From: Actinomycetota bacterium
GTDB taxonomy: Bacteria > Actinomycetota > Actinomycetes > S36-B12 > CAIYMF01
Direction of reading: 5' to 3'
DNA length: 64,000 bases
Assembly (NCBI GenBank): GCA_026393115.1
Contig: JAPLAU010000007.1
Span: 1-64,000 of the forward strand
Shown: positions 3,233 through 21,037 of the stretch, one piece after another
Layout: every line of letters begins with the position of its first letter
Position numbering within the stretch: position 1 is the first letter of the stretch
The notes under the pieces: generated by a model
The model's input: only the letters and a program-made list of their open reading frames with translations
Database searches by the model: none
Told to the model about the DNA's origin: nothing
Program-made: the position numbers and the translations under genes

Positions 3233-4039
3233 ATGCCCCGGCCTGACGAATCGTCTGCGGTCGGTGCCCCTCGCGGTCCACGTAAGGTGCGCAGGGAGCG
3301 TCGATCCTGGCTGTATGTCGCCCTCGGACTGATCGTCACCGTGGGGGTTGTCACCATCGCCACCTCGGTCTTAGGCAACAAATCTGTGGCGTCCGCCGAG
3401 ACCGTTGCTGTCGTACCGCCTATTGACGGTGCCCATTTGGTATCGAAGCCAGCGCGTGCGAAAACTGCGACGAAGCAGAAGAACAAGACGGTCGGGTACG
3501 CCCCGCCGGCATCACGACCCCGGCCGAGGCCAACGTCCGATGCCGAGCCCATTGCCGCCACTGTCTTCGTCAAGGCAGAAAACGTGCCGGCCTATCCGCC
3601 CGATGGTCGGCATGGCCGTCGCATTGTGTACTCCAAGGCGCTCATGCACGTCTGGATCGTCGACGATAACGATCGCGTCGTGCGGCATTACCCGGTCATT
3701 GGCCGCTGGGACCGTCCGGCCAAGGGCGTGTATCACGTGTACTCCACCTCACGCGACACGATGAATACCCATTCCAAGGTCGTGTTCTCGTACATGGTGC
3801 GTTTCGCGTGGGGCAAGGAAGACGCCGAGACGTCGATCGGCTTCCATTCAATTCCGATCCACTATGCAGATGTCTCCAAATGGAACGTCAAGAAGGGTGA
3901 TCCGGTCAGCCTGCCCTCCGAGATGGGATTGCCGATCGCCGAGGGCGGTTGCGTGCGTGCTGTCGATGACAATGCCCGGTTCCTCTACTACTGGGCGAAG
4001 GTTGGCGACACCGTAGTGGTGCTTCCTACCGGCGCTTGA
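3233..4039 (+). CDS. L,D-transpeptidase, YkuD domain (tandem paralogue)
   Basis: 268 residues with the same plan as the gene just upstream: a short basic N-terminus, one membrane span (about 24-45, LYVALGLIVTVGVVTIATSVL), a Lys/Pro-rich linker, then a YkuD domain from about residue 115. The domain has His in IGFHSIPIHY and the catalytic Cys in AEGGCVRAVDDNA. The catalytic domains of the two proteins are very alike, while the N-terminal halves differ. This points to an old duplication with conserved periplasmic chemistry and free linkers. The S-H-G-C motif is again altered (E-G-G-C). The stop is followed one base later by the thioesterase gene, so those two are probably transcribed together. 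Confidence 0.88.
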   Translation: MPRPDESSAVGAPRGPRKVRRERRSWLYVALGLIVTVGVVTIATSVLGNKSVASAETVAVVPPIDGAHLVSKPARAKTATKQKNKTVGYAPPASRPRPRPTSDAEPIAATVFVKAENVPAYPPDGRHGRRIVYSKALMHVWIVDDNDRVVRHYPVIGRWDRPAKGVYHVYSTSRDTMNTHSKVVFSYMVRFAWGKEDAETSIGFHSIPIHYADVSKWNVKKGDPVSLPSEMGLPIAEGGCVRAVDDNARFLYYWAKVGDTVVVLPTGA

Positions 4040-4040
4040 G

Positions 4041-4895
4041 ATGGTGACATTGCGCGAGTTGCTCACCACGAAGGCTGTCGCTGCTGAACCTGGATTCGAC
4101 GCCACTGCGTTAAGTGAGATACCACCGGGATTCCGACAAGGTCGTGGCGCATGGGGTGGGTTGATCGTCGGGTCCTTCGTCGACGCCGCCGTCAATTTCA
4201 TTGACAATCCCGAGCTCTCACCACGTTCACTCACGTCGCATTTGCTCGGCCCCGTTCCCGCAGGTCCTGCGACCATTTCGCTCACAATGCTTCGACGAGG
4301 TTCCAACACGGCTACGGTCAGCGCGCTGATGGTAGCCCGCGAAGCCGACCGCGAGGGGCACGCGACTGGTGATCCGGTGGTCGTGGCCGACGCAGTCGTG
4401 GTCTTCGGGTCGGCGCGTGCGGCCGACATTGACTTCACTGCGTCACGGTGGCAACCCCAGCCGCTTCCCGGCGCCCTTGAACGGGGCTGGCGGTCGGTCG
4501 ATGTGGTGGGCATGCCACCGGGTGTGGCTCCCGAATTCCTCAGTCAACTGGTGTGTCGTCCGGTCGCCGGCTTCCCGTTTAGCGGCATCGACTCGTCCGA
4601 GACCACGGGGTGGGTGAGTCCGGCAGAGGGAGTCACGCCAGATGCGGTCGTGCTCGCGGCACTCGCCGATGCGTGGTGGCCCGCGTCACTGGTTCCCATT
4701 GAGGGTCTGCGGCCAGCTGCAACATTGGCCTTCAGCCTCGACATCATCGGGCTGCCGTCAACCGATGAGCCACTGCTTCATTGCGGGCGCGTCATCGCAG
4801 CAAGTGAGGGTTACGTGGCCGAAGTTCGAGAACTGTGGTCACCTGACGGTCGGTTGCTCACGCTCAATCAGCAGACGATGGTGATTATTCGCTGA
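4041..4895 (+). CDS. Acyl-CoA thioesterase-like protein (double hot-dog, TesB type)
   Basis: 284 residues, soluble. The N-terminal half contains FRQGRGAWGGLIVGSFVDA and SLTSHLLGPVPAGPATIS, and the C-terminal half contains AALADAWWPASLVPI and TLAFSLDIIG. This two-lobed layout is that of TesB-like double hot-dog thioesterases found widely in actinobacteria, which hydrolyse acyl-CoA to free acid and CoA. The start at 4041 follows the stop of the L,D-transpeptidase by one base. The 3' end overlaps the convergent SulP transporter gene by 11 bp. The physiological acyl-CoA cannot be predicted; an acyl-CoA-binding non-catalytic role is possible. Confidence 0.75.
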   Translation: MVTLRELLTTKAVAAEPGFDATALSEIPPGFRQGRGAWGGLIVGSFVDAAVNFIDNPELSPRSLTSHLLGPVPAGPATISLTMLRRGSNTATVSALMVAREADREGHATGDPVVVADAVVVFGSARAADIDFTASRWQPQPLPGALERGWRSVDVVGMPPGVAPEFLSQLVCRPVAGFPFSGIDSSETTGWVSPAEGVTPDAVVLAALADAWWPASLVPIEGLRPAATLAFSLDIIGLPSTDEPLLHCGRVIAASEGYVAEVRELWSPDGRLLTLNQQTMVIIR

Positions 4896-6639
4896 CTGCG
4901 CCGTCGGGGTGAACCTCACGCCATGCTCGGAAGCCCTCGAGCGCAGTGGGCAGGGTGGGAAAGATGTGTTCGGGTCCAATCGAGGCCAGCAGTCCCGCAC
5001 GTTCAAGATCTCCACGCAACTCCTGTTTGACTCGGGCCATGGCCAAGACCACGCCACGGTCGGCCAAAGTCTGACGCAGGTCATCGAGAACCTCGGCCGC
5101 CGTTGAGTCAAGATCGACGTTGACTTCGGCGTTGATGAGAAACCAGCGAGGTCGAAACTGACTACTCGCGATAGCGCCTTGAGTTTGTATGGCGAGTGCT
5201 TGCAGCGCACGTTCGCGGAAGTGGTCGGCGTTGGCGAAGAACAGCGGTGAGTCATAGCGGAACACCACGAGTCCCGGCACGGTGACTGCGTCTGGGAAGT
5301 CTTCGACGTCATGCATCCCGGCGAGATTGGGCACCAAGCCGAGCACCGCCGAGTGGGGCCGCGCCACCTTCCAGAGCATCAAAGCGACTGACAATCCCAC
5401 CGCGATCAGCACACCGTAGAGAATGTCGAAGATCAGCACTCCGGCGGTTGCGCTGATTGCGATCGCGAACTCGCTGCGGCTGAAGTACCAGAGCCGTCTG
5501 AACTCTTTCCACTCAATCAACTTGAGTGCGGCGTAGATCACTATGCCGCCCAGAGCTGCCTTCGGGAAGGTGGCCAGGAGAGGGCGCAGGAAGAGCAATA
5601 CCAGCAGCACGCAACCAGCGGTGACCAGTGAATACACCTGCGTGCGCGCTCCCGACTGCTCGCCGATCACGGTTCGCGACGCCGATGACGAGACAGGAAA
5701 AGTCTGCAGTAGACCGGCACCCACATTTGCGGCCCCGAGTGCGAGCAATTCCTGGTTTGCATCAATCTGTTGGCCCGAACGGCGAGAGAAGGCGCGAGCG
5801 GTGAGCACGTTGTCGGTGTAGGCAACCAAGGTGACACCGAGGGCTGGCAGCATGAGTTCTTGCAGGGTGGCGGTGTCGATGCTCGGAACTGCGACGCTGG
5901 GCAGGCCCGCCGGGATTTCGCCGATGACGGCGATGCCATGCTCCTGCAAGTTGAACACCGCGACCGCGATGCCGGCGAGGATGACCGCGAGCAGTGGTGC
6001 GGGTGCTCTCGGCCACAAGCGCGACACGATGATGAGGAATGCGAGCACGGCCAATCCCAGCCCCAACGTCACCCCCGACAGTTGGTCGCGGTTAGCCCAC
6101 AGGCTGCTCATCTCGTCGACGAACGTTGTGCCGGTCTTGGTGATTCCGGTGAGTTTGTCGAGTTGGCTCAGCATCATGATGACGGCCACGCCGGCGAGGT
6201 AGCCCACAAGAACCGGCTTGCTAAACAAGTCGGCAAGTACGCCCAGACGCAATGCCCACGCTGCCAAGCACATCAGTCCCACCATGACGGCAAGCGATGC
6301 CGCAAGCACGGCGTATCGAGAGGGGTCGCCTAGTGCGAGGGGCGCCACCACCGACGCCGCCAACAGAGCCGTCGTTGACTCTGGGCCGACGGAGAGCAAT
6401 CTCGACGAGCCGAGCACGGCGTAGACCGGCAAAGTGATGAGTACAGCCCACAGGCCCGCGACTGCGGGTAGGCCCGCAATCTGCGCGTAGGCCATCACCT
6501 GCGGAACGAGATAGGCGGCGACAGTGATTCCGGCAATGACGTCACCGCGCCACCAACTACGCCGGTAGCGACGAGCAGTGGCGACGCCGGGCAGCAACCG
6601 CTCAAGCAGCGTTGGTGCCGCAATTGTCGACGTGCTCAT
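4885..6639 (-). CDS. SulP family anion transporter with STAS domain
   Basis: 584 residues from the ATG at 6639. The N-terminal two thirds has 10 or more hydrophobic spans and SulP signatures: GDVIAGITVAAYLVPQVMAY near the start and SVGPESTTALLAA afterwards. A STAS domain occupies about residues 440-560 (VVFRYDSPLFFANADHFRER). Family members move sulfate, bicarbonate or dicarboxylates. A GTG at 6648 is in frame, but it would overlap the -10 box TACAGT. The ATG at 6639 is 7 nt after that box, so I prefer it and expect a leaderless mRNA. The gene follows the subtilisin gene on the same strand and overlaps the convergent thioesterase gene. The anion is unknown. Confidence 0.9.
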   Translation of the reverse strand: MSTSTIAAPTLLERLLPGVATARRYRRSWWRGDVIAGITVAAYLVPQVMAYAQIAGLPAVAGLWAVLITLPVYAVLGSSRLLSVGPESTTALLAASVVAPLALGDPSRYAVLAASLAVMVGLMCLAAWALRLGVLADLFSKPVLVGYLAGVAVIMMLSQLDKLTGITKTGTTFVDEMSSLWANRDQLSGVTLGLGLAVLAFLIIVSRLWPRAPAPLLAVILAGIAVAVFNLQEHGIAVIGEIPAGLPSVAVPSIDTATLQELMLPALGVTLVAYTDNVLTARAFSRRSGQQIDANQELLALGAANVGAGLLQTFPVSSSASRTVIGEQSGARTQVYSLVTAGCVLLVLLFLRPLLATFPKAALGGIVIYAALKLIEWKEFRRLWYFSRSEFAIAISATAGVLIFDILYGVLIAVGLSVALMLWKVARPHSAVLGLVPNLAGMHDVEDFPDAVTVPGLVVFRYDSPLFFANADHFRERALQALAIQTQGAIASSQFRPRWFLINAEVNVDLDSTAAEVLDDLRQTLADRGVVLAMARVKQELRGDLERAGLLASIGPEHIFPTLPTALEGFRAWREVHPDGAVSE

Positions 6640-6667: not shown

Positions 6668-8536
6668 TTATGAGAGGGGTGCGACCGTCACGCGGTAGGG
6701 AGTCGTCGGTGCGGCGGAACCTGAGATCGTGATGAGGTACGTCGTGGTTACCCCAGTTGACGCAATGACGAGCGGGTTTCCGCTTCCGAGGTTCTGTGTG
6801 TCATCGGAGGCAAGCGGAGTCGTCGTATCACTCGCGTCGAAGACGGTGATGGTGTGCCCTGGAGCCGGGTCATCAATCGAAACTTCGAGTCCGTCAGCCA
6901 GTGCCACGTACCAGTCGACATCCGAGCCAGTAGCGATGACATCGCTCGCAGAGTTACCGGGCGCCACAAGACCGAGAGCGCGTGCGGAGTCGACTGTGTT
7001 TCCGGCGTCGGGGCCATGCCAACGACCCGCGGTCGAACCGGGGCCCACGATGTGCGACACACGCTCGACGGCGACAACGCGCGCTTGGATAATGTGGCCG
7101 GGTCGCACGTTCGTGAAGGGCAACGAGCACACGGTCGTGACGCATGCATGTCCGGCGTAGCTCAACTTCTTTGCAACCGACCAAGCGCCGCCATCGCTGC
7201 GGTAGGCGACACTCCAGTAATCAACTCCGTACGAGCCGGTTCGGGCAACGCCGCGCCAACGCACCCTAATCGCTGAGTTCGCGGGGTCGCTCGTAATGGA
7301 AGTTCCTTGCGGTGCCGTCGGAACTCCGCGCAGCACAGTGAGTGGCTGCACCAAGCCGTACCCGTACAGTTCGTCGCGACCTGTGGCGCCGAGGTCGCGT
7401 GCCGTGGCCTGCAATTCGGCGGCAATGCGCGCTGCCGACCAGGAGGGGAACCTCGAGGCAACGAGTGCCGCAGATGCTGACACGAACGGCGTGGCCATCG
7501 ACGTGCCGCTCATGCGCACATAGATGTGACGAACCTGGTGAGTTGTCGGATTGGTGGGACAAACGTCGGTTGCCTCAGTTTCGTAGGTCAACGCACAGGA
7601 GGTCGACAAAATGTCGACGCCGGGTGCTACGAGATCGACCTGCGGACCGATGCTGGAGAACGACGCCAAACTCAAGTCGCGATCGATTGCGCCGACGCCG
7701 ACGACGCCCGGGTAACTCGCCGGGTAACTCGGAACCCGCGCTCCGTCATTTCCGGCAGCAGCGACGACCACGATGTTACGGCTACGTGCGTAGTCGCATG
7801 CCTTCTTGAGCACGTCAGTGGATTCAGGTCCGCCCAGCGACATGTTGATGACTCGTACGCCCGGCTGCTTGGCAGCCCACACAATTCCGGCTGCCACGGT
7901 GGCGTCAGTTGCAGATTCACCATTGAAGACATCGACCGGAAGGATGTGGACTCCTGGTGCGAGTCCAGAACCCCCGAGCCCGTTGTTGGCGCGAGCGGCG
8001 ATGATGCCGGCCACGTGAGTTCCGTGACCGCCAGGGTCGACGGGCCGGCCGGGATTGACGATGTTCCTGCCGGCCAGAACAACTCCGGCAAGGTCGGGAT
8101 GAGTTCGGTCGACACCATCGTCAACGACTGCCACCACAACCTTGGCGCCACGGCTCCACGCTTGTGTCCTGCTGAAACTCAACGCGCGAAGTCCCCATTG
8201 GGAGGCAACGCTGGGATCGATTGCTGCGGTGTTCACGGTAGTGCCGAGACGATGCATTGGAACTGTCACGTTGGCGGCCTGAACCCCCGGAACTGAGCGC
8301 AGGGTACGGACTAGATTGACGGCCCCCTGCTCAGACGAGGCAACGGCGGTGCGAATCTCAGGAGCTCCGGTGTCGGTTCCGACGGCGTAAGTCACCGTCA
8401 CCGGAGAGGTCGGCGCGGGAGTCGTGGTCACGTCGGCACGGGCGGCTGGGGTACCCAAGGCTCCGAGCATGGCCGCGGGTAGACAGGCAGCAATCACCAG
8501 TGCGGCACGTCGCCGGTGCCGAGAGGTAGCCGTCAT
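6668..8536 (-). CDS. Secreted subtilisin-like serine protease (peptidase S8)
   Basis: 622 residues. The Sec-type signal peptide (basic MTATSRHRRR, hydrophobic core, likely cleavage after AARA near 34) is followed by a short pro-region. The S8 catalytic domain has Asp139 (VVDDGVDRTHPDLAG), His171 (GGHGTHVAGIIAARANN), oxyanion Asn263 (AAGNDG) and Ser346 (MSGTSMATPFVSASAALV). A further 220 or so residues form a beta-rich C-terminal region resembling a fibronectin-like plus a pre-peptidase C-terminal type domain (VDWYVALADG, TTYLITISG). No membrane anchor follows, so it is probably released or wall-bound. The ribosome site GGAGGGTGGAG precedes the ATG at 8536. It lies just downstream of a secreted repeat-rich protein on the same strand, a candidate partner or substrate. 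Confidence 0.93.
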   Translation of the reverse strand: MTATSRHRRRAALVIAACLPAAMLGALGTPAARADVTTTPAPTSPVTVTYAVGTDTGAPEIRTAVASSEQGAVNLVRTLRSVPGVQAANVTVPMHRLGTTVNTAAIDPSVASQWGLRALSFSRTQAWSRGAKVVVAVVDDGVDRTHPDLAGVVLAGRNIVNPGRPVDPGGHGTHVAGIIAARANNGLGGSGLAPGVHILPVDVFNGESATDATVAAGIVWAAKQPGVRVINMSLGGPESTDVLKKACDYARSRNIVVVAAAGNDGARVPSYPASYPGVVGVGAIDRDLSLASFSSIGPQVDLVAPGVDILSTSCALTYETEATDVCPTNPTTHQVRHIYVRMSGTSMATPFVSASAALVASRFPSWSAARIAAELQATARDLGATGRDELYGYGLVQPLTVLRGVPTAPQGTSITSDPANSAIRVRWRGVARTGSYGVDYWSVAYRSDGGAWSVAKKLSYAGHACVTTVCSLPFTNVRPGHIIQARVVAVERVSHIVGPGSTAGRWHGPDAGNTVDSARALGLVAPGNSASDVIATGSDVDWYVALADGLEVSIDDPAPGHTITVFDASDTTTPLASDDTQNLGSGNPLVIASTGVTTTYLITISGSAAPTTPYRVTVAPLS

Positions 8537-8584
8537 AACTCCACCCTCCCATGGCGGGGCTGACCTGTTGTGTATCTACTCATC

Positions 8585-10183
8585 TCATCGGCTCGTCGGT
8601 GTCGAAACTGAAGCCGACGGTCGAGGGTCCGGTGGCGGCGTTGGCGTGGGCGGAATCGGCGGCAGCGTCTGATCGAGCACAGGGGGGCGCGTCGGGGGGC
8701 ACACCACGGTGGGTGCGTCGGTCGGTGAAGGGCTGACGGTGGGATCGACGGTTGGTGAGGCCGTTGGTGAGGCCGTTGGTGAGGCCGTTGGTGTCGCCGA
8801 GGGCGTGGGTGTGGGTGTGGGCACGATGAGGCAGGCATCGACTGCTGCTTGGTAGTCACGCGCTGCCTGTTGCTGGGCGGTCACAAGCACCGTTCGGTCG
8901 GCAACGGCCCGCTGCCACTGGGCCAGTGCTAGCGCGTAGACGTCGCGAGCAGCCTGAAGGCTTGCCCAGGCTCGAGTTACTTGGGCGATCTTCGCCGCAT
9001 AGAGGCGGTACTGACCCAAACCTGCTTCGTACGCGCTTGCGGCAGCCCAGTACTTCTGCACCTGTCCCTGCCACGCCTTTTGCGCCTCGATCAGTGCGGC
9101 GCGCGCCTTGGCGATCGTGTCGGTACGGATCGCCAAGGCCGATGCTTCGTCAAAGGTGGGCGTCGTTTGACCGGTAAACGCCCAGCCGCAGCCCGGGCCA
9201 GCGTCGTCGCGGCGGGGTACCCCGACGGTGGTGGCGCTGGGCTGTGCAGCCACGGGGGATGGGAGCACCGGCGTGGCAACGGGAGTGGGGGCAGGAGGCC
9301 AGAGAGGCTCAGTGGGAGTCGCGGAAGGTTCACTCACTTGGGGCAGTGGTTCGAGGGGTGCGGTGAGATCTCGGGGCAGCACTCCGGCCGGGGGAGTGGG
9401 CCAAGGCGACGGGGCGATGGCAATGGTTTCGGGGGCGAGCCATCCGGTGTACACCTTCGGGTCGATCCAGGGTGAGCGCAGCGCATCCTCAACCGTCGAT
9501 TCCATTGAGGCACAGACCGGTTCGATCGCGGTGGTAGCCGCAGCGTCAACTGCCTGCGCTGCGGCGATGAGGCTGGGGTAGGGCACCCCGCTCGCGTGAA
9601 CATCGAGCACCACGTCACCGCGGCGCCACACCACCGACGTGACCGTCGAGGGGGAGCCTTCCGGTCGAACTTGGCCGATCAGCCCGTTGGCACCGCCGAC
9701 CGACACCGGCTGAGAACTCACCGACGACTCACGCTGTGGGCACTGCGCGACGCGCTGGGACAGCTGATCGAAGGCGAGGGCCCCTGCGCCCGCGCTGAAT
9801 GCGTGTGCCGACACCGTGAGGGTTTCCGACGCGCTTTGGAATGTGCGCTGGCCGGAAACGGCAGCGCCGGGCCCCTTCCACGCAGTGAGCTGACAGGCGT
9901 AGTCGTAAGGAGTACCAACCGCCCAATCGACCTCAGCGGAGGGCAGCCACGGAGCTCCTGGACCTTGGTTGAGTACAGACGTCACCGCGTGGGTCGCGGG
10001 GGAGTCGGAGAGAACGGCCAAGGGGGCCAGCGAGGGGCTTGGGGTCGCGGCCGGGGCGGGGGCAGAGGCGCTGGGCAGGATGGGAATTCCGGCCTTGCCG
10101 AGGGCTACGACGAACGCGACGGGCAGGCACAACGCGAGCACGCCAGCACCCACGAGGGCAGGCCACGACCGCTTACCTGACAT
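8585..10183 (-). CDS. Secreted or membrane-anchored coiled-coil protein with Pro/Thr/Ser-rich tail, function unknown
   Basis: 532 residues. An N-terminal hydrophobic segment (about 8-32) is a signal peptide or anchor. Residues about 35-215 form an Ala/Ser-rich, Cys-containing globular part (YACQLTAWKGPGAAV, VCASMESTVEDAL). A Pro-rich linker of about 80 residues follows. A helical coiled-coil region at about 340-455 (KARAALIEAQKAWQGQVQKY, LQAARDVYALALAQWQRA) comes next. The tail is PTPTPTPSATP followed by ASPT repeats, resembling a wall-spanning stalk. Four cysteines are visible. I do not recognise the family. The start has a strong AAGGAGGGAG. It lies 48 bp upstream of the subtilisin gene on the same strand, so the two are probably co-expressed. 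Confidence 0.75.
   Translation of the reverse strand: MSGKRSWPALVGAGVLALCLPVAFVVALGKAGIPILPSASAPAPAATPSPSLAPLAVLSDSPATHAVTSVLNQGPGAPWLPSAEVDWAVGTPYDYACQLTAWKGPGAAVSGQRTFQSASETLTVSAHAFSAGAGALAFDQLSQRVAQCPQRESSVSSQPVSVGGANGLIGQVRPEGSPSTVTSVVWRRGDVVLDVHASGVPYPSLIAAAQAVDAAATTAIEPVCASMESTVEDALRSPWIDPKVYTGWLAPETIAIAPSPWPTPPAGVLPRDLTAPLEPLPQVSEPSATPTEPLWPPAPTPVATPVLPSPVAAQPSATTVGVPRRDDAGPGCGWAFTGQTTPTFDEASALAIRTDTIAKARAALIEAQKAWQGQVQKYWAAASAYEAGLGQYRLYAAKIAQVTRAWASLQAARDVYALALAQWQRAVADRTVLVTAQQQAARDYQAAVDACLIVPTPTPTPSATPTASPTASPTASPTVDPTVSPSPTDAPTVVCPPTRPPVLDQTLPPIPPTPTPPPDPRPSASVSTPTSR
8751..8798 (+). repeat. 12-bp tandem repeat inside the Pro/Thr-rich tail
   Basis: Three exact copies of GTTGGTGAGGCC (8751-8786) are followed by a diverged fourth (8787-8798). 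Read on the minus strand they encode the ASPT repeats of the secreted protein. Exact copies at DNA level indicate recent slippage expansion. Confidence 0.9.
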
Positions 10184-10366
10184 CGATGCTCCCTCCTTGA
10201 ACTGTCAAGTCTGGCCGACGATCGCCCTGATCCTCGGCACCCACCGTTTCTCGCGCGGCTTCGCGGCACTCTCAGACCTGCCCATACGTTGACGACTGGG
10301 AGCGGCACGACGTGCCCGTAACGCCGGATAACCCACCTCGGGGCTTGTGAAAGGGATGATGGAGTC

Positions 10367-12721
10367 ATGTCGGCCCTCGATGACTGGTTTCCGGGGGCCT
10401 CGACCCCCGACCATCGTCGGTCGGTGACCCATGGACGCTCCGGCCGATCACGCCCCCTCAAACGCCCCCCGCGTAGGTTCCGAGCGCTGGTGGGCTTGAT
10501 TGTGGGGGCGGTACTGGTGGCGCCCATCGTGGCGCTGATGGCGGTACCGGCTGTCAGCGGTGTCGGTATTGGCGCCCGCGAAGTGGTCTCACGGTGGGAA
10601 AGTCTGCCCACTGATCTTCCGCTCAACGCGCCTCTCCCCCAACGTTCAACGATCTATGCGGCCGACGGCACCACCGTCATCGCGAACTACTACGCGGAAA
10701 ACCGTATTCCGGTAGCACTCGACCAGATGCCCCCGATGATGGTCGGTGCCGTGTTGAGCATCGAGGACGACAGGTACTACGAACACGGTGCTCTCGACGT
10801 TCGCGGAACGACGCGCGCCGTCGTGAACAATCTGGCCGGCCGGTCGCGACAGGGTGGAAGCAGCATCACGCAGCAGTACGTGAAGAACCTGTTGCTCACC
10901 GAAGCACGTAGCGATGCTCAGCGGCGCGAAGTAACGGCCACCACGCTCGATCGCAAACTGCGTGAGGCCCGGCTTGCCGTTGAAGCCGAGCGCACCCTCG
11001 GCAAAGACGGTGTGCTCGCGGCGTATCTCAACACCGTCTACTTCGGTCGAGGTGCCTACGGTGTCGCCACTGCGGCCGAGCGATTTTTCGGAGTCAAACT
11101 CGCCGACATCACTCCTGCTCAGGCAGCCACCCTTGCGGGCATGCTCAAGAGTCCGACCAATTACGACCCCATCACCAATCCGCGCCTGTCAAAGGTGCGA
11201 CGCAATGTGGTGTTGGGTCGCATGTTCGATGCGGGAGTAATCACTGCGGCGCAGGCGAAGAAGGCCAAGGCTGCGCCGTTGACCGTCACTCTGACGCAGC
11301 CGGCCAATGGGTGCACCAAGTCGAAGTGGCAGTTCTACTGTCAAATGGTGCTCGACACCATCGCTGACGATCCGACCTTTGGCGCGACCAAGGAAGCGCG
11401 CGCCGACCTGCTTTTCCGAGGCGGGCTGCGCATCGTGACCGCGATGGATCCCAAGGCGATGGCGATCACTCAGCATGCGGTTGATGCAGCGCTCACTCCC
11501 ACGAACAGAGTGGCGACGTCGATGGCGGTCGTACAGCCTGGAACCGGCAAGGTTGTGGCGATCGCGACCAACCGCAATTGGGGCACCCGCGAGAAGAAGG
11601 GTGAAACCGAAATTGTGCTTCCGGCGGTGCCGCGATTCCAACCGGGATCAACGTTTAAGCCGATCACGTTGGCCACAGCCCTTGAACAAGGTTTCTCTCC
11701 CTACACCAAGCTCGACACTCCCGATGGCTACCAGCCGGCGGTATTGAATGCGCCCGACGGCGGCTTTCACAATGACGACGATCAGGGTCACGGCGTGATC
11801 GACGCTTTCGACGCCACCGCTCAGTCGGTCAATACGTTCTATGTGCAGTTGATTGAACGGGCGGGCGTACTTCGGGTCGCAGACATGGCCGGTCGCCTCG
11901 GAATGACGTCGCTGCCTCGCAGCGGTTCGAAGGCGGTTGGTTCGAAGGATGCAGCACTCACGCTCGGCGCCTTTGAAACGTCTCCGGTTCAGATGGCCAA
12001 CGTGTACGCAACGCTGGCAGCGCATGGACGTGCGTGCCCTGCGGTAGTGATTTCATCGATCACCCGCAATGACGGCACTCCCGTTACATCTCCGACGACG
12101 CAATGTCGTCAGGTGGTGTCGTCTGCGGTGGCTGACATGGTGACCGAGGTGTTGCAGCGCACATTCACACCGTCGGGAACTGCGGCGGGTCTGGGTCTGG
12201 AAGGTCGACCCGCCGCGGGCAAGACGGGAACGACGAATAACTCGGGGGCGACGTGGTTTGCGGGATACGTGCCGCAGTACGCAACCGCCGTGTGGGTGGG
12301 TGATCCGCGTGGTCCGACCTATGCTCTGCGCGATGTCGAGGCGTACGGAGAAACATTCGGTGTCGTATACGGCCGCTCCATCGCCGGGCCCGAATGGCGT
12401 GAGGCCATGACTGCACTCACTCGCGGACTATCGGTTGTTCCATTTACCCGCGCCGATCCGTCGGCACTTATCGGCGTGAGCCCAAGCGTTCCGGATGTGC
12501 GTGGGCTCATGCGTGACGCAGCAATCGCAAGTCTGGTGCGCGGTGGATATCGCGTGGTGGTGTCGCCGAAGACCGCCGATCCGCAACCCTTGTCGGTTCC
12601 GGGAATCGTTGCGGCACAGTCGCCGGCAGCGGGCACACCCTCGGGTCTCGACTCGACTGTCACTCTGACCCTGACCGACGGATCTGACACAGCGGTGCGA
12701 ATCCCTGGTCAGGGCGCGTAA
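10367..12721 (+). CDS. Class A penicillin-binding protein (transglycosylase/transpeptidase) with PASTA domain
   Basis: 784 residues. A short basic cytoplasmic tail and one membrane span (about 40-62) come first. A GT51 glycosyltransferase domain follows, with catalytic Glu in EDDRYYEHGALDV near 131 and GGSSITQQYVKNLL. The penicillin-binding transpeptidase domain has the serine motif STFKP near 427, SVN near 490 and KTGTT near 619. A C-terminal PASTA domain at about 705-775 begins VPDVRGLMRDAAIASLVRGG. It polymerises and cross-links peptidoglycan at the outer face of the membrane, complementing the L,D-transpeptidases nearby. The ATG at 10367 is preceded at 6 nt by GATGAT, a possible weak -10. 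The upstream 183 bp to the divergent gene holds nothing else I recognise. Confidence 0.95.
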   Translation: MSALDDWFPGASTPDHRRSVTHGRSGRSRPLKRPPRRFRALVGLIVGAVLVAPIVALMAVPAVSGVGIGAREVVSRWESLPTDLPLNAPLPQRSTIYAADGTTVIANYYAENRIPVALDQMPPMMVGAVLSIEDDRYYEHGALDVRGTTRAVVNNLAGRSRQGGSSITQQYVKNLLLTEARSDAQRREVTATTLDRKLREARLAVEAERTLGKDGVLAAYLNTVYFGRGAYGVATAAERFFGVKLADITPAQAATLAGMLKSPTNYDPITNPRLSKVRRNVVLGRMFDAGVITAAQAKKAKAAPLTVTLTQPANGCTKSKWQFYCQMVLDTIADDPTFGATKEARADLLFRGGLRIVTAMDPKAMAITQHAVDAALTPTNRVATSMAVVQPGTGKVVAIATNRNWGTREKKGETEIVLPAVPRFQPGSTFKPITLATALEQGFSPYTKLDTPDGYQPAVLNAPDGGFHNDDDQGHGVIDAFDATAQSVNTFYVQLIERAGVLRVADMAGRLGMTSLPRSGSKAVGSKDAALTLGAFETSPVQMANVYATLAAHGRACPAVVISSITRNDGTPVTSPTTQCRQVVSSAVADMVTEVLQRTFTPSGTAAGLGLEGRPAAGKTGTTNNSGATWFAGYVPQYATAVWVGDPRGPTYALRDVEAYGETFGVVYGRSIAGPEWREAMTALTRGLSVVPFTRADPSALIGVSPSVPDVRGLMRDAAIASLVRGGYRVVVSPKTADPQPLSVPGIVAAQSPAAGTPSGLDSTVTLTLTDGSDTAVRIPGQGA

Positions 12722-18618: not shown

Positions 18619-20148
18619 GTGTTCGTTCCGCTCACAGTGCGCGATTTCATTGATCGTGCGGAAACGGTCTATCCGCAGCGGGTCGCTGTTGTCGACGAGC
18701 AGGATCAGCCAGCTACCTCATGGGGGTCGCTCACGTATTCGCAGTTGGCTGCCCGAGCGCGAGCTCAGGCCGCGGGTCTGGATGCGCTTGACGTTCCTAT
18801 CGGGGGCCGTGTCGCGATCGTGTCGCACAACTCTGCGCGATTACTGACGAGTTTCTTCGGCGTCTCGGGATCGGGTCGTGTCTTGGTTCCGATCAACTTC
18901 CGATTGGCGCCGGCCGAGGTCGACTACATCGTTGAGCACAGCGGTGCTGAGGTCCTGTTAGTTGACCCTGAACTCGATGAGCAACTCGCGCACATTGCGC
19001 CGCGGCATCGGTTCGTTCTCGGCGAGAGTGATGACGTGCTCTTCCCGGCAGGCGCTGCCGGCGTGAAGTGGGAAGGAGATGAGGGTGTAACCGCCACCAT
19101 TAACTACACGTCAGGAACGACCGCACGGCCCAAGGGTGTGCAACTGACGCATCGCAATTTGTGGATCAATGCAACCACGTTCGGCTGGCACTCCACGGTG
19201 ACCGATCGCGACGTCCTGCTGCACACGTTGCCTATGTTCCACGCCAATGGTTGGGGCATGCCCTATGTCATCACTGGGATGGGTGGTCGCCACATCGTGT
19301 TGCGCAAGGTTGACGGCACTGAAATTCTGCGGCGCGTTGAGGAACACGGTGTCACCATCATGTGCGGCGCGCCCGCAGTGCTGGCGATGGTGCTTGATGC
19401 CGCCGCAGAGTGGGAAGGCGAGATACCTGGTCGCGATCGAGTTCGGGTCATCGTTGCGGGGGCTCCGCCGCCGAGTCGCACCATCGAGCGTATTGAGACC
19501 GAGTTGGGCTGGGAGTTCATTCAGATCTACGGTCTGACTGAGACCTCGCCTTTACTCACAATGAATCGACGTCGTGCGGAGTGGGATGACTTCACCCCGC
19601 ATGCGCGCGCTCGCGAACTTGGTAAGGCCGGCGCGCCAGCCATTGGTGTGCGCGTGAAGATCGATGAGAGCGGTGAGATTCTGGCGCGCTCGAATGTGGT
19701 GCTCGAGGCTTACTGGGAGCAGCCCGAAGAATCTGCGGCTGCCCTTGCCGATGACTGGTTCCACACCGGCGATGGAGGAGCGGTAATCGACGGCTATGTC
19801 ACCATTAGCGATCGCAAGAAGGACGTCATCATCTCCGGGGGCGAAAACGTGTCGTCGATCGAAGTGGAAGATGCCTTGATGAGTCACCCGGCCGTTCGTG
19901 AAGTTGCAGTCGTGGGCACGCCTGATGACAAGTGGGGAGAGGCAGTCACGGCGCTGGTCGTCACCGATGGAACGGCACTGACGGCTGACGATCTGGTGGC
20001 GCACTGTCGCACGGTCTTGGCTGGCTACAAGTGCCCCAAGCGCATCGAATTCCGCGACGAACTACCGCGCACTGCCACAGGCAAGTTGCAGAAGTTCAAG
20101 TTGCGTCAGGAGTTCTGGACAGGGGAGGGATCTCAAATTAAGGGATAA
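18619..20148 (+). CDS. Acyl-CoA synthetase (AMP-forming ligase)
   Basis: 509 residues starting at GTG with AGGAGGT upstream. ANL-superfamily motifs: P-loop-like INYTSGTTARPKGVQLTH near 160, YGLTETSPL near 300, WFHTGDGGAV near 380, SDRKKDVIISGGENVSSIE near 395, and the C-terminal catalytic Lys in PRTATGKLQKFKLR. It activates a carboxylic acid with ATP and transfers it to CoA. The chain length is not predictable. Divergent from the reductase; the intervening 120 bp would carry both promoters. The small double-glycine-leader gene starts 55 bp after its stop and could be on the same transcript. Confidence 0.93.
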   Translation: MFVPLTVRDFIDRAETVYPQRVAVVDEQDQPATSWGSLTYSQLAARARAQAAGLDALDVPIGGRVAIVSHNSARLLTSFFGVSGSGRVLVPINFRLAPAEVDYIVEHSGAEVLLVDPELDEQLAHIAPRHRFVLGESDDVLFPAGAAGVKWEGDEGVTATINYTSGTTARPKGVQLTHRNLWINATTFGWHSTVTDRDVLLHTLPMFHANGWGMPYVITGMGGRHIVLRKVDGTEILRRVEEHGVTIMCGAPAVLAMVLDAAAEWEGEIPGRDRVRVIVAGAPPPSRTIERIETELGWEFIQIYGLTETSPLLTMNRRRAEWDDFTPHARARELGKAGAPAIGVRVKIDESGEILARSNVVLEAYWEQPEESAAALADDWFHTGDGGAVIDGYVTISDRKKDVIISGGENVSSIEVEDALMSHPAVREVAVVGTPDDKWGEAVTALVVTDGTALTADDLVAHCRTVLAGYKCPKRIEFRDELPRTATGKLQKFKLRQEFWTGEGSQIKG

Positions 20149-20178: not shown

Positions 20179-20203
20179 CGCGGCACCTTTCTAAGGAGTT
20201 GTC

Positions 20204-20326
20204 ATGGCTGACCAAGACCCCATTGACCCCGAGCTTGCTTCAGATGAGCTCTCACAATGCGAACTCGATGACGTCGCAGGTGGATTTCCTAAATCTGACA
20301 CGCGCGTAACCGGCAGCGGTGGCTGA
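20204..20326 (+). CDS. Small peptide with bacteriocin-type double-glycine leader (RiPP-precursor-like)
   Basis: 40 residues: MADQDPIDPELASDELSQCE then LDDVAGGFPKSDTRVTGSGG. AAGGAG lies 5 nt before the ATG. Residues 12-27 fit the double-glycine leader pattern of peptide bacteriocins and several ribosomally made, modified peptides, where LS-x-x-EL-x-x-VAGG is recognised and cut after GG by a peptidase-containing ABC transporter or similar protease. Cleavage would release a 13-residue core with two Ser, two Thr and no Cys. No lanthipeptide synthetase, radical SAM enzyme, YcaO or C39 transporter lies in the window. The flanks are an acyl-CoA ligase and a convergent flavin reductase. The frame and ribosome site are clear; that it is a secreted or modified peptide is inference. 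Confidence 0.6.
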   Translation: MADQDPIDPELASDELSQCELDDVAGGFPKSDTRVTGSGG

Positions 20327-20332
20327 GCGGTT

Positions 20333-20872
20333 TCAGCCGCTCTGCGGCATTTCCACATCACCCTCGGGGCCGATGGGCATCCGACGGAAGTCGCGCTGGT
20401 AGTACACGACGGCATCACGGTCGCCGAGCACCACGTCATCAACACGACCGATGAGGATCGTGTGATCGCCGCCGTCGTATCGCGCGTGCACGCTGCATTC
20501 GAGCACGGCAGCCGCCTCGGTCATCACCGGCAGGCCGCGTGCGCTGAGTTCGAAGGGAGAGGCCGCGAATTTGTCGGCTCCCCGGGTTGCGAACACCTTC
20601 GCAAGATCAGCCCGGTCGGACTGCACGATGTGCACGGCAAATGACGTTCCGGTCATGAACGCCGAGTGGCATTCAGCTGACTTAGCCAGGCACACCAGTA
20701 CGAGTGGGGGATCGGCTGACAGTGAGCAGAACGAACTGGCAGTAAACCCCCACCAGCGACCGTCGGCGTCGATGGTGGTGGTGATGGTGACGCCCGTTGG
20801 AAACGTGGCCATCGCGTCGCGAAATCGGTCGCCACTCACTGGCTCCCGTGGTTCGTCGATGCTGGTGTTCAC
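20333..20872 (-). CDS. Flavin reductase family protein (FMN-binding split barrel)
   Basis: 179 residues from a GTG at 20872. The open frame continues 20 codons upstream through a Cys-rich stretch that is unlikely to be coding. FRDAMATFPTGVTITTT and FTASSFCSLSADPPLVLVCL are typical of the HpaC/NtaB-type flavin reductases that supply reduced FMN or FAD to two-component monooxygenases. HTILIGRVDDVVLGD closes the barrel. No obvious monooxygenase partner is adjacent. Its stop is 7 bp from that of the small double-glycine peptide gene (convergent). The start is uncertain because no good ribosome site is visible. Confidence 0.85.
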   Translation of the reverse strand: MNTSIDEPREPVSGDRFRDAMATFPTGVTITTTIDADGRWWGFTASSFCSLSADPPLVLVCLAKSAECHSAFMTGTSFAVHIVQSDRADLAKVFATRGADKFAASPFELSARGLPVMTEAAAVLECSVHARYDGGDHTILIGRVDDVVLGDRDAVVYYQRDFRRMPIGPEGDVEMPQSG

Positions 20873-21037
20873 GGGATACTGCTTACCACAGGGACTGCAT
20901 CGCGACGATTCGACGCGGGTGCCCCAACACACGCGGAGGTGGCCGCTTCGCGCCGCCGCAACTTATGCCAGACATGGTGGCGTGTAGTGATCTCGGGAAG
21001 AAGTCGTGCCGAGGTTTATACGACTGGTGAGTGTGAG

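Follow-up and report, generated by a model that had tools for sequence, protein, structure and literature searches.

The window analysed here is a stretch of 64,000 nucleotides from a genome of the genus CAIYMF01 (3.5 Mb, 95% complete; G000 hereafter). Between an acyl-CoA ligase-like gene and a convergent flavin reductase gene, it encodes a 40-residue peptide with a double-glycine (GG) leader. The features of the locus, in window coordinates, are:

18619–20148, plus strand: AMP-binding (acyl-CoA ligase-like) gene, motif YTSGTTARPKG read directly; ends 55 nt before the peptide gene
20193–20198, plus strand: Shine-Dalgarno sequence AAGGAG, 5 nt before the ATG, from the sequence
20204–20326, plus strand: peptide open reading frame, 40 aa, leader MADQDPIDPELASDELSQCELDDVAGG followed by core FPKSDTRVTGSGG
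20204–20284, plus strand: double-glycine leader MADQDPIDPELASDELSQCELDDVAGG, 27 residues, from the sequence and the homologue alignment
20285–20323, plus strand: predicted core FPKSDTRVTGSGG, 13 residues, Cys-free, net charge +1, hypervariable between homologues
20324–20326, plus strand: stop codon TGA, from the sequence
20325–20342, no strand: inverted repeat GAGCGG-TTTCAG-CCGCTC, perfect 6-bp arms, spanning both convergent stop codons
20333–20932, minus strand: flavin reductase gene, convergent and downstream (PF01613, E 8.7e-39)

A preliminary description of this DNA had given the 40-residue frame and its coordinates, a good ribosome site, the 13-residue core and the string ASDELSQCELDDVAGG at leader residues 12–27; each proved exactly as noted. 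The core has four Ser/Thr residues, is rich in Gly and Thr and is near neutral; its calculated [M+H]+ when unmodified is 1308.65. The inverted repeat is also present in the sister species described below. It has no T-run and is therefore not a canonical terminator; a scan for terminator-like sites scored none, and a scan for a promoter-like site for the peptide gene found none.

The flanking genes were also named correctly at the outset, as a convergent FMN reductase (PF01613) and an acyl-CoA ligase (AMP-binding motif). The peptide gene ends 6 nt from the end of the flavin reductase gene, and it is possibly co-transcribed with the upstream ligase gene. The ligase is probably not functionally linked to the peptide. 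The combination of flanks, which had been noted as unusual if functional, looks incidental because paralogues of the peptide gene occupy quite different neighbourhoods.

Two further observations concern the downstream side. Compared with the sister species, the flavin reductase gene has a dS of about 0.12–0.14, whereas the ligase gene (18619–20148) and the sterol-desaturase-like and argS genes have values of about 0.7–1.0; the low value relative to the surrounding genes suggests a recent recombination tract beginning at the peptide locus. Positions 20797–21030 (plus strand) hold what remains of a 3-hydroxyacyl-CoA dehydrogenase-like gene, namely its C-terminal end (RFAPPQLMPDMVACSDLGKKSCRGLYDW), and the matching place in the sister species has an intact 327-aa dehydrogenase-like gene (L021, 9887–10870).

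Homologues and selection

The only other genome of CAIYMF01 that we compared, G001, is an environmental MAG of a sister species. At the matching site, again flanked by ligase and flavin reductase genes, it has two tandem homologues, copies A and B (E 2e-7 and 9e-6), whose leaders and cores are MADLDPIESELPSDELSNDELSDVAGG with AVVFGGTTGGKLPGTMSGTTGGTF and MADHGPIEPELVSDELSGVELDDVVGG with IAGGPGVTGTTLDRAAAGADNVAPGWH. A second tandem pair lies on its contig C203, with leaders ending in ELSDAELDAVIGG and ELSEDELNDVIGG and cores VGAHGRHTVGEAG and FGSSTLKIKGEA, respectively. The ribosome site is likewise kept, as AGGAGTTGTC-ATG, 5' of copy B.

Leader and core have fared very differently. Thirteen residues, including L16, E20, L21, V24, G26 and G27, are invariant in all five homologues, and the C-terminal parts of the leaders align far above shuffled sequences in every pair. 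Most core pairs are unalignable (3 of 10 reach p 0.02–0.06), and the five cores range from 12 to 27 residues and from −1 to +1 in net charge, with no Cys in any. The leader of the window gene differs from that of copy A with pN 0.17 and pS 0.68, third positions taking 15 of 23 changes (binomial p 0.0017). Against copy B, the nearest in DNA, pN is 0.14 and pS 0.32; the third-position bias in this comparison alone falls short of significance (p 0.09). Two outcomes had been named beforehand as counting against the gene, namely a leader not conserved in relatives and a synonymous to non-synonymous ratio near 1. Neither was encountered: the sister species retains the leader, and per site the changes are mostly synonymous. 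On these sequences, the natural reading is that the export tag has been conserved while its cargo has diversified.

The motif E-L-[ST]-x-x-[ED]-L-x-x-[VI]-x-G-G is expected by chance about 0.009 times in all small ORFs of a 3.5-Mb genome. A strict degenerate DNA pattern for the leader has one match in G000 and four in G001; eight further genomes of the family gave a single match, inside a large gene, and the reversed pattern, used as a control, gave none across ten genomes. In three genomes (G009, G002 and G003), most matches to a relaxed pattern could be assigned to larger ORFs that contain them; for the few others there was no ORF carrying the motif in frame. A leader profile search of 395 genomes of the class (E<=0.001) returned nothing beyond the two genomes of the genus. 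Nothing similar to the peptide appeared in the phage and plasmid collections and viral contigs that we searched, and an origin from a mobile element is accordingly unsupported. The genome-wide search for small ORFs relied on patterns and may miss GG leaders of other shapes. The peptide family is new and genus-specific, and its kind, the PCAT-exported double-glycine peptide, is known.

An exporter encoded elsewhere

The window had been noted, correctly, to have neither a C39 transporter nor a synthetase, and it was suggested that the peptide may rely on distant machinery. A genome-wide search found suitable export machinery outside the window. Exactly one Peptidase_C39 domain was found in G000, on another contig (G000:C27:122780-123166, E 1.5e-33), and no LANC_like protein was found anywhere in the genome. 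The domain belongs to a three-gene NHLP-type cassette on contig C27:

first gene: HlyD-like protein, 277 aa (HlyD_3)
middle gene: C39-ABC protein, 737 aa
third gene: ABC protein, 953 aa

The C39-ABC protein scores 775 bits against TIGR03796 (under the curated cut-off of 853) and the third-gene ABC protein 540 bits against TIGR03797 (under the curated cut-off of 709). Over nearly its full length, the former resembles PCAT1 (9e-83) and ComA (8.5e-71). An alignment with three relatives shows that it has kept the Cys, His and Asp of the C39 domain, which from established knowledge of C39 peptidases we take to be the catalytic triad. The domain occupies about 150 residues at the N-terminus, and its putative catalytic Cys is Cys45, counted from the start of the ORF. 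The same cassette is present in G001 (93–94% identical), where it adjoins no GG precursor. In a third genome of the family, G009, the exporter is present and a pattern search found no GG peptide. As the peptide family is found in two genomes of one genus only, the evidence for its conservation comes from that genus, and the co-occurrence of leader and exporter amounts to one phylogenetic event.

Published work on such proteases describes broad substrate use. LahT150 needs just the last 13 leader residues and accepts widely different cores, and the LahT protease accepts Nif11, nitrile-hydratase and short leaders (PMC6363468); one PCAT often serves several peptides with distinct leaders (PMC7018657). 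Haft et al. (2010) linked NHLP precursors to a TransFuse/TransCleave/TransABC cassette and found that the leader family tracks this transport cassette, not any one tailoring enzyme (PMC2887384). PCATs may also be selective through other leader residues, near −22 to −18 (PMC7018657), so we can only infer the pairing of this peptide with this exporter. For the same reason, the N-terminal 'PI..EL', conserved in the three copies at the window and orthologous loci, could add exporter specificity.

Other double-glycine precursors

At least four further GG precursors, unlinked to the window gene, are encoded in G000. These, with a counterpart in G001, are:

L157 (G000:C5:1-18000), 3294–5993: set of three precursors on contig C5
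L158 (G001:C285), 7531–10408: counterpart in the sister species, core RVRL
L159 (G000:C16), 2388–2654: NHLP-leader precursor ending in EISEVDLDQISGG before the core HSGNFGTPM; TIGR03793 E 5e-10, below cut-off

The C5 precursors lie between clpP-like and clpX genes, and their leaders, which differ from the window leader upstream of the motif, end in TDDALTDDDLEIVSGG and are followed merely by YRI, LVAR or RPILTR. A GT2 gene begins about 13 nt past the first precursor, and divergent from this GT2-linked precursor is a gene for a PqqD-TylF fusion (PqqD E 3.4e-10, TylF E 1.7e-10). The C285 counterpart likewise adjoins a GT2 gene and a PqqD-TylF fusion between clpP-like and clpX genes, and together the two short-core loci look like an undescribed peptide-modification cluster. 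The C16 precursor, with its 9-residue core, is unlinked to the exporter and adjoins a gene for a 339-aa protein with no Pfam or NCBIfam match. Within about 15 nt after the C203 pair in G001 comes a 265-aa gene that we read as glycosyltransferase-like, with GT4 and Methyltransf_24 genes nearby; it has no Pfam or NCBIfam match and was not found in G000. No glycocin model matched the glycosyltransferases at C5 and C203. It is the paralogous GG precursors, then, and not the window one, that accompany sugar- and methyl-transferases. Above the model cut-off there are four PqqD domains in G000 and five in G001, compared with 0–1 in sister genera of the family, nearly all of whose genomes have none.

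Other peptide loci were noticed as well. Lasso-like clusters at L182 (5259–10569), L181 (5932–7516), L184 and L185 (4608–5346) hold Asn_synthase, GT2, PqqD-TylF fusion, HPr-kinase-like, PqqD and NTP_transf_5 genes, along with tandem, near-identical 40-aa precursors (MTEREPYSKPAEPVLVGSVEMS...SIYSSL, with a YxxP motif; five copies on contig C313 of G001). No transglutaminase-type protease was noticed in them. A partial LanM stands at the start of contig C240 of G001 (L123, 1–1749; TIGR03897, 310.7 bits), and none was found in G000.

Assignment to known classes

Judged by its sequence, the peptide has the characteristics of a PCAT-exported double-glycine peptide. Leaders of this class close with Gly-Gly, Gly-Ala or Gly-Ser; here hydrophobic residues stand at −12 (Leu16), −7 (Leu21) and −4 (Val24) before the terminal Gly26-Gly27, all invariant in the five homologues; the acidic residue at −8 is Glu20, which is Glu in all five; and a C39-peptidase ABC exporter (G000:C27) is encoded in the same genome. 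These leader positions are those by which C39 peptidases recognise their substrates (PMC6363468, PMC7018657). Position −15, hydrophobic in many but not all leaders, is Ser13; three or four conserved positions have been described (PMC7018657), so −15 is optional.

No curated family model accepts the window peptide, with no match in Pfam and NCBIfam scores below cut-off. The class II bacteriocin models PF10439 and TIGR01847 were not passed, and a 13-residue core of net charge +1 contrasts with the cationic or amphipathic core of about 25–60 residues in that class. Lanthionine chemistry on the core is very unlikely, because all five homologous cores lack Cys and the search of the 95% complete genome for LANC_like proteins found none. 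As an NHLP/Nif11 precursor the peptide is rejected for want of a TIGR03793 or TIGR03798 match. We likewise set aside an rSAM (SPASM)-modified RiPP, the single SPASM match in the genome adjoining a sulfatase gene on contig C15 and G001 having none, and a glycocin, as neither the window locus nor the corresponding locus of G001 has a glycosyltransferase gene. A weak match to GRASP_targ_2 (14.9 bits, where the model asks for 32) covers little beyond the GG end of the leader, and we gave it no weight.

Discussion

We conclude, with a probability of roughly three in four, that the window gene is a functional orphan GG precursor whose product is cut and secreted in trans by the C27 exporter, releasing FPKSDTRVTGSGG. 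The 27-residue leader would be read by the only C39 ABC exporter found in G000, acting with its HlyD-like protein and second ABC subunit; cleavage would follow Gly27, and the 13-residue core would be released outside the cell. Expression, cleavage and export are all predicted from the DNA. The core is short, Gly/Thr-rich and near neutral, and for this reason the peptide is probably a lineage-specific signal or interference peptide and not a classical bacteriocin. These core features, the failure to find a LANC_like protein and the position of the lone SPASM match beside a sulfatase gene lead us to favour an unmodified product. The preliminary description was therefore right about a double-glycine leader gene that is locally an orphan, and its proposal of a modified RiPP or a new modification chemistry is not borne out.

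A true RiPP, whose core would be modified in trans (for example glycosylated or O-methylated) before cleavage and export by the C27 exporter, is the chief alternative, possible but doubtful. The GT2 gene and PqqD-TylF fusion among the C5 precursors, the C203 pair with its neighbouring transferases, the excess of PqqD domains over sister genera and the four Ser/Thr residues of the core speak for such a pathway. However, neither the window gene nor its tandem homologues adjoin a modifying enzyme, the window and C5 leaders are unalike upstream of the motif, the 265-aa gene of C203 is matched by no family model and was not found in G000, and a Cys-free core in a genome where no LANC_like protein was found does not favour it. 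Distinctly unlikely is a small unmodified class II-like bacteriocin, its export averting self-toxicity. The leader type would suit one, as would the hypervariable tandem cores, and copy A gives a sub-threshold match to Bacteriocin_IIc (E 9e-5, below cut-off); yet the cores, at 12–27 residues and a net charge of −1 to +1, are Gly/Thr-rich and not cationic, and no obvious immunity-like gene adjoins them.

That the frame arose by chance, or is the decayed remnant of a leader with no function left, we think very improbable. No product is known, the family is confined to one genus and no promoter-like site was found, but the frame is conserved with an excess of synonymous change at a divergence that, in most flanking genes, amounts to a dS of about 0.4–1.0, and a conserved ribosome site, tandem paralogues and the low chance expectation all speak for a gene. 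We give scarcely any credence to a joint function with the ligase and flavin reductase that would, for example, yield an acylated or redox-tailored peptide. The ligase gene does lie upstream on the same strand in both species (55 nt in G000, about 60 nt in G001), but the genes around the GG paralogues at C203 and C5 are unrelated to these and the flavin reductase gene is convergent.

The secreted GG peptide that we favour has relatives in well-studied systems. The ComC/Blp/Rtg peptides of streptococci and the substrates of ComA, PCAT1 and LahT have the same GG leader end, with L-12, E-8, L-7 and V-4, and double-glycine PCAT systems share with ours a short variable cargo and a genomic PCAT; a single PCAT may act on several substrates encoded at unlinked sites (PMC6363468, PMC7018657). 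In contrast to the streptococcal systems, the exporter here is an NHLP three-gene cassette, no regulator or kinase lies beside the peptide gene, there is no hydrophobic residue at −15, the cargo has no known similarity and the lineage is far removed. With NHLP/Nif11 systems (TIGR03793/TIGR03794/TIGR03796/TIGR03797), G000 shares the three-gene cassette architecture and one NHLP-leader precursor (C16), although the window leader, at 27 aa, is short and matches neither the NHLP nor the Nif11 model, and the exporter scores fall under the curated cut-offs. Prochlorosins (ProcA/SyncA) likewise combine a conserved GG leader with hypervariable cores and scattered precursor genes (PMC10783134); their leaders are long and of the Nif11 type, and ProcM cyclises cores that contain Cys, whereas the window system is Cys-free and no LANC_like protein was found. 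The paralogous loci alone share with glycocins a GG leader accompanied by glycosyltransferase genes; the window gene has no such neighbour, and no core has a Cys.

The apparent orphan leader belongs to a genome-wide set with an exporter in trans, and knowing that exporter makes a direct protease assay with defined substrates possible. The GG cores of the genus are Cys-free and unusually short, at 3–27 residues (YRI, LVAR, RPILTR and FPKSDTRVTGSGG among them). We suggest only tentatively, as a rather unlikely extension, that one stand-alone NHLP-type exporter serves many scattered GG precursors, some of them tailored by dedicated glycosyltransferases and a PqqD-methyltransferase fusion, and that these would form an undescribed RiPP class. 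For an uncultured lineage in which peptide communication is little known, our analysis contributes a family of hypervariable GG peptides, and the very short cores found beside PqqD and glycosyltransferase genes may belong to a new peptide pathway.
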